DNA of 33,700 bases from contig CAMUZA010000016.1 in assembly GCA_947165085.1 (NCBI GenBank), positions 1-33,700 on the forward strand, in the 5' to 3' direction. Both the position numbers and the translations under genes were made by a program. Positions 30,050 to 31,423 of this stretch are shown here, piece after piece; within the stretch, counting starts at the first letter, position 1; each line of letters starts with the position of its first letter. Origin of the DNA: an uncultured Clostridia bacterium. Lineage in GTDB: Bacteria > Bacillota > Clostridia > Oscillospirales > Oscillospiraceae. The notes below the pieces were generated by a model that did no database searches, was not told the DNA's origin, and worked only from the letters and a program-made list of their open reading frames with translations.

Positions 30050-30077
30050 AAATGCTGCCGCATGCGCGGCAGCATTT
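30050..30077 (+). terminator. Terminator hairpin, left copy of 28-bp target duplication (element 1)
   Basis: TGCTGCCGC and GCGGCAGCA pair over 9 bp around ATGC, preceded by AAA and followed by TTT. It lies 11 nt after the 72-residue gene. Identical to 30242-30269. The T-tract is cut to three T by the following element. Confidence 0.85.
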
Positions 30078-30241
30078 CAGACTGTCAAAAAAAGGTAGAA
30101 CGTGGGGCATTCGGAGGGAAAGAAAGTGTGAAAGAAAACCGTCAGGGTTGTCTTTCACGTTCAATCAAGCAGGATTTTCAAACTTTTTTGGAAGTTTGAA
30201 AATCCGCATGAGCGTGTCAAAAAGGCTTTTTTGACACGCTC
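30078..30241 (+). mobile_element. Terminator-associated short repeat element, copy 1 (164 bp)
   Basis: Begins CAGACTGTCAA and ends TTGACACGCTC; the ends form an imperfect terminal inverted repeat (8 of 11 positions, with TGTCAA identical). It contains three hairpins: GTGAAAGA/TCTTTCAC at 30128-30158; GATTTTCAAACT/AGTTTGAAAATC at 30173-30204; and a 14-bp stem GAGCGTGTCAAAAA/TTTTTGACACGCTC at 30210-30241 that is the 3' end. The last 130 bases or so are nearly identical to copy 2; the region 30088-30109 is divergent. It is flanked by a 28-bp direct repeat consisting of the local terminator hairpin. No transposase frame is present, so it looks like a non-autonomous, MITE-like element. Confidence 0.8.
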
Positions 30242-30271
30242 AAATGCTGCCGCATGCGCGGCAGCATTTTT
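30242..30271 (+). terminator. Terminator hairpin, right copy of target duplication (element 1)
   Basis: Same 28-bp sequence as 30050-30077, here with a full run of five T, so this copy remains a good terminator directly before the yitT promoter. Confidence 0.9.
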
Positions 30272-30275
30272 GCTG

Positions 30276-30304
30276 TTGACTTTTCCGTGTAAACTTGCTA
30301 TATA
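30276..30304 (+). promoter_or_regulatory. Sigma-A promoter of the YitT gene
   Basis: TTGACT at 30276-30281, a 17-nt spacer, TATATA at 30299-30304, 31 nt before the gene. The -35 starts only 5 nt after the terminator T-run. Confidence 0.8.
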
Positions 30305-30335
30305 TGTGTAGGTATTCTCACTAAGGAGGGCGGAA

Positions 30336-31196
30336 ATGAAAGGCTGGCGCTATGTACGGGATTTTTCCTTCATCATGTTTGCTGCATTGCTTTTGGCATT
30401 CAGCTATCACATCTTTATCTTTCCGAATGAATTTGCGCCCGCGGGACTTCCCGGCTTTGCGACGATGCTGCAGTATCTGTTTAATTTCAAAGTCGGCTAC
30501 ATGATGTTCATCATCAATATACCGCTGGTGATCATCGTCTATCTGATGATCGGGCATAAATACGCGATCCGCTCGGCGGTTTTCGCCGCCACCTTTGCGG
30601 GCATGCTGCTCGTACTGGATTATGTGGATCTGTCCATGTTCCTATACAAGACGGAAAACAGCGCCGTCCTCGCGCCCATCGCGGGCGGCGTGATCACCGG
30701 CTTCTGCTACGGCATCGTGATGCGGCGCAACGGCAGCACCGGCGGCACCGATCTGGTCGCCGCGCTGGTGCAGCACAAGTATCCGGAATACAATATTCTC
30801 TGGATCATTTTTGCGATTAACGCCGCAGTCGCCGGCGCGTCCTATTTTGTCTACGGCTTCAAGATCGAGCCGGTCATTCTCTGCGTGATCTACTGCTTTA
30901 TTTCCAGCGAGGTCAGCGACGTCATTCTCAAAGGCTTCAAGGAAGCGGTCAAGTTCGAGATCGTGACCGATCAGCCGGAGGAGATGGCGAAAGCGCTGAT
31001 GGAGAATCTGCACCACGGCGTGACGGAGCTCCCCGCAGTCGGCGGCTATACGCACAGCAACAAAACGCTGCTGATCTGCGTGGTCAACAAGCGGCAGATC
31101 GTCCGCTTCCAGAAGGTCATCAGCAAATTCCCCGGCTCGTTCGCCTATCTTTCCAACGTCAGAGAGACGATGGGCAATTTCACAAGAAGCAGATAA
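30336..31196 (+). CDS. YitT-family membrane protein
   Basis: 286-residue protein with about five hydrophobic spans in the first 195 residues and a soluble C-terminal domain (about 200-286) of the DUF2179 type. The stretches LPGFATMLQYLFNFKVGYMM, GGVITGFCYGIVMRRNGSTG and GGTDLVA are typical of YitT/DUF161 proteins, which are abundant in Firmicutes and have no firmly known transport function. ATG 30336 follows AAGGAGGGCGG. The gene has its own promoter and stands alone between two copies of the short repeat element. Confidence 0.88.
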   Translation: MKGWRYVRDFSFIMFAALLLAFSYHIFIFPNEFAPAGLPGFATMLQYLFNFKVGYMMFIINIPLVIIVYLMIGHKYAIRSAVFAATFAGMLLVLDYVDLSMFLYKTENSAVLAPIAGGVITGFCYGIVMRRNGSTGGTDLVAALVQHKYPEYNILWIIFAINAAVAGASYFVYGFKIEPVILCVIYCFISSEVSDVILKGFKEAVKFEIVTDQPEEMAKALMENLHHGVTELPAVGGYTHSNKTLLICVVNKRQIVRFQKVISKFPGSFAYLSNVRETMGNFTRSR

Positions 31197-31201
31197 GAAA
31201 C

Positions 31202-31231
31202 AACGGCTCGCACGTCTGTGCGAGCCGTTTT
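31202..31231 (+). terminator. Terminator hairpin, left copy of 30-bp target duplication (element 2)
   Basis: AACGGCTCGCAC and GTGCGAGCCGTT pair over 12 bp around GTCT, then T. It lies 5 nt after yitT. Identical to 31394-31423. Confidence 0.9.
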
Positions 31232-31393
31232 CAGACTGTCAAGAAAGGCAGGGAGTGGGTGTTTCGGAGGGAAAGAAAGTGTGAAAGAAAACCGTCAGGG
31301 TTGTCTTTCACGTTCAATCAAGCAGGATTTTCAAACTGATTTTAAGTTTGAAAATCCGCACGAGCGTGTCAAAAAGGCTTTTTTGACACGCTC
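31232..31393 (+). mobile_element. Terminator-associated short repeat element, copy 2 (162 bp)
   Basis: Starts CAGACTGTCAA and ends TTGACACGCTC like copy 1, with the same order of three hairpins. Differences in the conserved part are confined mainly to the loop of the second hairpin (GATTTTA in place of a T-rich loop) and a C for T before the third hairpin, so the stems are preserved. It is flanked by a 30-bp direct repeat that is the yitT terminator hairpin and is unrelated to the hairpin beside copy 1. Both copies have the same orientation, 1154 bp apart. Confidence 0.8.
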
Positions 31394-31423
31394 AACGGCT
31401 CGCACGTCTGTGCGAGCCGTTTT
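31394..31423 (+). terminator. Terminator hairpin, right copy of target duplication (element 2)
   Basis: Same 30-bp hairpin as 31202-31231, 7 nt before the end of the convergent mgtE. It may serve both directions, although the T-run is better on the + strand. Confidence 0.8.

Follow-up and report, generated by a model that had tools for sequence, protein, structure and literature searches.

The short element that occurs twice in the window (the whole 33,700-nucleotide stretch analysed here, from an uncultured Clostridia bacterium) is present in many copies, is absent from orthologous empty sites, has ends in common with IS1182-family transposons, and lies between two copies of what was one hairpin; the length and the centre of the duplicated unit follow that hairpin, and autonomous IS behave in the same way. 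As the most probable reading, to which we assign a probability of roughly 0.86, we propose a MITE that is moved by a DDE transposase of the IS1182 family; the enzyme would recognise its target by palindromic structure, most likely as a cruciform, and join the element to the 5' feet of the hairpin, which gap repair would then copy. An earlier note on the same DNA, made from its letters alone, had suggested a mobile element that recognises terminator hairpins. The multiple copies, the empty sites with a single hairpin and the IS with the same behaviour support this suggestion, while cleavage itself has not been shown.

Two elements between duplicated hairpins

The two MITE-like elements occupy positions 30078–30241 (copy 1, 164 bp) and 31232–31393 (copy 2, 162 bp), both on the + strand. 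They are 91% identical and have the common ends CAGACTGTCAA...TTGACACGCTC, and both insertion sites are intergenic. Each element is bracketed by an exact direct repeat, of 28 bp at site 1 (30050–30077 and 30242–30269) and of 30 bp at site 2 (31202–31231 and 31394–31423). Elements and repeats thus agree with the earlier description, according to which, moreover, each repeat is a terminator hairpin together with adjoining A and T residues. This needs only a minor amendment: all four repeat copies score as terminator-like, but the A and T residues lie inside the stem, all of them at site 1 and part of them at site 2. Thus, the duplication reaches the foot of the whole stem, and the duplicated unit extends 0–2 nt past it. 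At both sites the right copy is terminator-like on the + strand and the left copy on the - strand (30074–30056 at site 1), so that a gene coming from either side meets a T-tailed hairpin at the far copy. By direct reading of the sequence, the first hairpin copy met by an incoming gene has only two to four T ahead of the start of the element. We infer that termination is preserved after insertion.

Empty sites were sought in congeners, and a single hairpin without the element was found at site 1 in five of them (G002, G003, G006, G010, and G012) and at site 2 in three (G002, G006, and G012). The site 1 hairpin of G006 is identical to the duplicated 28 bp. When the window was aligned to the congeners, the genes flanking the sites were found on one contig and in the same order in G002, G006, G010, and G012. 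Since the empty sites carry a single hairpin, the second hairpin of the window is, on this comparison of sequences, best read as a target-site duplication. Tandem hairpin copies that existed before the insertion are ruled out by the empty sites, and hairpins carried by the element itself are ruled out as the hairpins differ from site to site. The occurrence of two hairpins without the element, named beforehand as an observation that would refute the suggestion, was encountered once, at site 2 of G010, and otherwise not in the congeners examined. The two hairpins of G010 are related neither to each other nor to those of the window, and some 200 bp of repeat-like sequence separates them. At neither site did any of these congeners show the same hairpin twice in the absence of the element. 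In G010, this two-hairpin region (L233, about 1212–1501) replaces a simple terminator region, and a repeat resembling its sequence was observed near an IS in L110 and L115.

The element is short and multicopy and contains no transposase gene. A search for other copies in the own genome yielded 16 that are full-length or nearly so (covering at least element positions 5–162), in addition to further fragments. Fourteen of the 16 copies lie between two similar hairpins, which vary from site to site. Of the other two, L002 retains only part of its right hairpin and L015 lacks a hairpin on the right. Hairpins also bracket L021, a diverged copy, and five truncated copies (L017, L018, L019, L020, and L022) could not be assessed on both sides. 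Matches to the element occurred in 10 of 60 genomes including the own genome, that is, in 9 of 59 relatives, of which 7 are congeners; G006 alone had 19 MITE matches. Scanning named genomes with a pattern of the element core gave at least 113 stretches. Among the matches listed, the core occurs in Flavonifractor plautii ATCC 29863, Flavonifractor sp. An10 and An112, Pseudoflavonifractor capillosus, one Acutalibacter MAG, and various uncultured members of the Oscillospiraceae or Clostridia. The core pattern misses the copies that have diverged most. No copy of the element was found in the phage collection searched.

Geometry of the duplicated unit

At least 139 non-redundant core matches were obtained, 106 of which had enough sequence on both flanks. 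Among the matches listed, the left and right flanks repeated each other with a score of at least 14 in 74 of these 106 copies, compared to 0.66% of mismatched (re-paired) flanks. In a few of the 74 (e.g. L140, L147, and L214), the repeat is not a hairpin but a tandem or end-sequence match. Both ends were recognised by pattern in 51 of the copies listed, and the repeated flanks were flush with the ends in 38 of them and not in the remaining 13. Across these 38 copies, the length of the unit tracks the span of the hairpin (r = 0.82). Units over 40 bp and scores under 18 were excluded from the statistic of the centre, leaving 33 of the 38. In this set, among the matches listed, the duplicated unit measures 20–39 bp, and its centre is offset from that of the hairpin by a mean of -0.09 nt (sd 0.70 nt), with an offset within 1 nt in 29 of the 33 well-aligned cases. 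The unit of L054, which lies outside the statistic by the length limit, is 47 bp long and has an offset of 0. A strong centred stem was present in 82% of the true windows and in none of the windows of the same length shifted by 6–12 nt. The units were delimited by alignment, so that in older copies, where only a conserved stem may have kept its similarity, the centring could be overstated.

Twenty hairpin pairs (16 at MITEs and 4 at IS) are identical, and none of these is a perfect palindrome. The identical pairs are, therefore, direct repeats, which indicates that the primary duplication is direct. To the 38 flush pairs, ten hand-picked ones (7 IS pairs and 3 MITE pairs) were added, the latter three chosen because they looked inverted; of the resulting 48 pairs, 42 were closer in direct orientation, 4 in inverted orientation, and 2 were tied. 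In L086, L218, and L123, the loops are inverted or replaced between the two hairpin copies, with stems that agree. The same was noted by eye for the loop of L160, the pair as a whole scoring as direct. These four cases suggest later copying, flipping or conversion between two palindromes.

Autonomous transposons with similar ends

A profile search for IS1182 transposases was performed on 120 genomes of the family and subsequently on 400 family genomes together with the genus (the own genome and 16 congeners). Complete IS with MITE-type ends and duplicated hairpins were obtained from the 120 genomes as L058/L086 and L059/L090, and the wider search added L093, L094, L095, and L097. A transposase gene between ends like those of the element, as had been proposed as a check, thus exists within hairpin-bracketed IS1182-family transposons in the family and in one congener. 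The link to IS1182, previously offered as an inference only, gains support from these autonomous elements, which have like ends (CAGNNTGTC) and the same hairpin duplication; mobilisation of the MITE in trans remains inferred. Against the curated IS1182 model, L058 and L057 score 385.9 and 388.6 bits, respectively, at a cut-off of 270, and the Pfam domains of the transposase are DDE_Tnp_1_6 and DUF772. Terminal inverted repeats around the IS gene were identified in L086 (CAGACTGTCGAA/TTCGACAGTCTG), in L090 (CAGTTTGTCAAAAAA), and in others.

The transposase of congener G006 is 79% identical to that of L058. The corresponding IS has the left end CAGACTGTCAAAAAAC and the right end TTCTTTGACAGTCTG, both of its outer flanks start with the same 29-bp hairpin, repeated exactly, and its implied length is 1522 bp. 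Its two halves lie on separate contigs with an exact overlap of 99 bases, and that they represent one insertion is our inference. The left end of the MITE, CAGACTGTCAAAAAA, is the same as in the G006 IS; its right end, GAGCGTGTC, is similar, though not identical, to the IS ends CAGACTGTC. The right ends of IS in G012 and G015, inspected by eye, also adjoin hairpins, with the gene broken off at the contig edge. IS ends thus lie at contig edges in all three congeners, G006, G012, and G015. In the own genome, a draft of 94 contigs, no transposase of this clade was detected at E ≤ 1e-8, and no match to PF13751 at E ≤ 0.001. The IS end pattern had two one-mismatch matches in the own genome, one being the MITE copy of L009 and the other (L262) not recognisable as an IS end; the backwards control of the pattern also gave one match. 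The absence of the transposase could reflect either loss or, for a multicopy IS, the draft state of the assembly.

In a tree of 32 transposases, every hairpin-flanked row fell into one clade of 24 (support 97/95). Within this clade, 12 rows have duplicated hairpins, 3 have two different hairpins, 3 have one hairpin, and 6 could not be assessed. Outside it, 6 of the 8 rows are without a flank repeat above a score of 10 and 2 are not assessable, so that duplicated hairpins occur in none of the 6 assessable rows. The rows with one hairpin are L057, L096 (at a contig end), and ISEfa7. The two unrelated hairpins occur at L092 (G285) and at L104 and L107 (both G402), which are perhaps recombinants between IS copies. 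L072 (which contains stops) and IS1272 were left out of the tree, the hairpin labels were assigned by reading the flanks, and several branches are long, with the Aminobacter row and some of the outside rows unsurely placed. Exact hairpin repeats of 18–26 bp bracket the IS of the Streptococcus phages YS387, Javan87, Javan256, and phiJH1301-3 as well as that of the Aminobacter plasmid pMET1. The IS1182-type transposase of the Streptococcus satellite phage Javan256 (L255, 565–2016) is annotated as a cell wall hydrolase.

Target recognition and internal structure

DDE transposases attach the 3' ends of their element at staggered positions of the target, and host repair copies the stagger; the resulting target duplications are usually of a length set by the enzyme. 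For the element described here, we propose that the transposase of the CAGNNTGTC-ended clade picks its target by palindromic structure, that is, by DNA shape rather than by sequence, and that an extruded terminator cruciform is the likely substrate. Each of the two 3' ends of the element would be joined to the 5' foot of a hairpin, one on the top strand and the other on the bottom strand; in a cruciform, these feet would meet at one four-way junction whatever the length of the stem. With the 5' feet held together at the junction, an ordinary transpososome could give a duplication of variable length. Gap repair by the host would then copy the hairpin, so that a complete terminator stands in direct orientation on either side of the insertion. 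With no experiment to draw on, we infer that the element is mobilised in trans, that a cruciform is extruded, that the strands are transferred to the 5' feet, and that termination is preserved. In a more general form, which we consider somewhat more probable than its opposite, a DDE clade present in Clostridia of the gut, in phages of Streptococcus, and on at least one alphaproteobacterial plasmid acts at cruciform junctions and has no fixed duplication length, what is duplicated is an entire working terminator, and the three-hairpin MITE spreads nearly harmlessly via the terminators of Oscillospiraceae. If true, this would explain how insertion into terminators leaves each neighbouring gene an intact one. 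A duplication length set by the target palindrome would be a trace that structure recognition leaves in the genome, whether cruciforms extrude at terminators in living cells would become directly testable, and the many natural insertion sites could serve for mapping the targeting rule.

Some IS families make long target duplications, and both sites of the window, the only two that were annotated, are intergenic. These points would fit a transposase whose long-staggered cuts are placed largely at random, with selection removing the insertions that damage genes and sparing those in terminators; yet such a process should neither bring the middle of the duplication to within about a nucleotide of that of the hairpin nor make its length track the stem, and we consider it very unlikely. 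Symmetric, hairpin-centred cuts are also expected if no cruciform is extruded and a symmetric protein dimer reads the hairpin on its two arms as a linear palindromic duplex. A dimer of this kind should, however, require a fixed spacing or sequence, whereas spans of 20–39 bp (47 bp in L054) occur and the target sequences are unrelated between sites; we therefore doubt this explanation without dismissing it.

The inverted or replaced loops of L086, L218, L123, and L160, with their agreeing stems, show that copying between hairpins may occur, and the element might accordingly insert beside a hairpin and acquire the second one only afterwards, through template switching or copying from one palindrome to the other. 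That this accounts for the general pattern is barely conceivable, as the 20 identical direct pairs favour duplication at insertion and the same pattern occurs at autonomous IS of Oscillospiraceae, of Streptococcus phages, and of an Aminobacter plasmid. Finally, covariation of the core and right-terminal hairpins across genera (see below) could point to a structured regulatory RNA or a two-hairpin switch instead of a transposon. We regard this as highly improbable given that the element is multicopy, has empty sites, a target duplication, and ends common to an IS, and belongs to no Rfam family; it could have an RNA function in addition to its transposon nature.

Several known systems are close to the one described here. 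Group IIC introns are retroelements that also insert beside terminator hairpins and, unlike the element described here, are not known to duplicate their target; the comparison here extends only to the absence of Rfam matches at gathering score. In ISfinder, direct repeats of up to some 60 bp are given for IS1182, so that its curators may already have seen such duplications. Among bacterial MITEs, RUP and QMITE2 are treated in PMC10969869, and Correia elements are a further example. Such MITEs have terminal repeats and no room for a transposase and are likewise short and multicopy; unlike them, the present element has a hairpin as its target, a whole-terminator duplication of variable length, and three internal hairpins kept across genera. 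The IS of the Streptococcus phages (that of Javan87 is annotated as IS1562) and of pMET1 belong to the same transposase clade and have hairpin repeats, but are autonomous and occur in other hosts. No description of their target was found in the literature searched, of which only parts were accessible; IS1562 is mentioned in PMC2766830.

Palindrome targeting is known for some members of the IS1182 family, as quoted from reviews in the accessible portions of PMC4923244 and PMC5678879, on which the following comparison rests. IS1272 of this family targets a hairpin and replaces it (stem-loop replacement, PMC5678879), and the IS1272-based TnSha1 targets hairpins, including several terminators; the hairpin is partly deleted there and is not duplicated (PMC4923244). 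The targets of both, which are found in staphylococci, have no primary sequence consensus (PMC4923244, PMC5678879). The element described here resembles IS1272/TnSha1 in its affiliation to the IS1182 family and in its hairpin targets, several of which were confirmed as transcription terminators in that system. It differs in that the whole hairpin is kept twice, whereas in IS1272/TnSha1 it is partly deleted or replaced without a target duplication. IS1272-type stem-loop replacement is ruled out for this element by the two retained hairpins. Duplication of a whole hairpin appears, as far as the source could be consulted, as the hypothetical pathway b beside the observed replacement (Fig. 13 of PMC5678879). 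In the open literature searched, for which partial texts were available, we found no description of whole-terminator duplication by an IS nor of this MITE family; we thus take the duplication as a new form of a known hairpin targeting. Relative to that partly available literature, the whole-terminator duplication and the MITE family appear new, while hairpin targeting by the IS1182 family was already known.

Three hairpins are kept within the element across genera. The conserved core hairpin lies at 30127–30159 in copy 1 (helix 2, with 99.5% of cells paired) and, by homology to helix 2, at 31280–31312 in copy 2, both pairs of coordinates being counted by hand. The middle hairpin, at 30172–30205 in copy 1 and at 31325–31357 in copy 2 as a self-complementary match, occurs in all 17 diverse elements, its sequence differing among them and between subfamilies. 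The right-terminal hairpin, at 30210–30241 in copy 1, includes the right end of the element and corresponds to helix 3, with two-sided change in 5 of 13 pairs; in copy 2, it lies at 31362–31393. All six hairpins are given on the + strand. In an alignment of 16 of the 17 diverse elements (L187 was left out), the core and right-terminal hairpins covary: 7 pairs showed two-sided change, a number reached by none of 500 shuffles, and 26 cells with two-sided change compared to 6.1 in the shuffles (0/500). The number of further pair types, which is less telling, was matched in 36 of 500 shuffles. A shuffle test of this kind can be inflated by related sequences. In Rfam, no family matched at its gathering score, the one weak match being STnc320 with 24 bits against 50. 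The right ends of the autonomous IS L058, L111, L114, and L115 have a hairpin directly inside, parallel to the right-terminal hairpin of the MITE.
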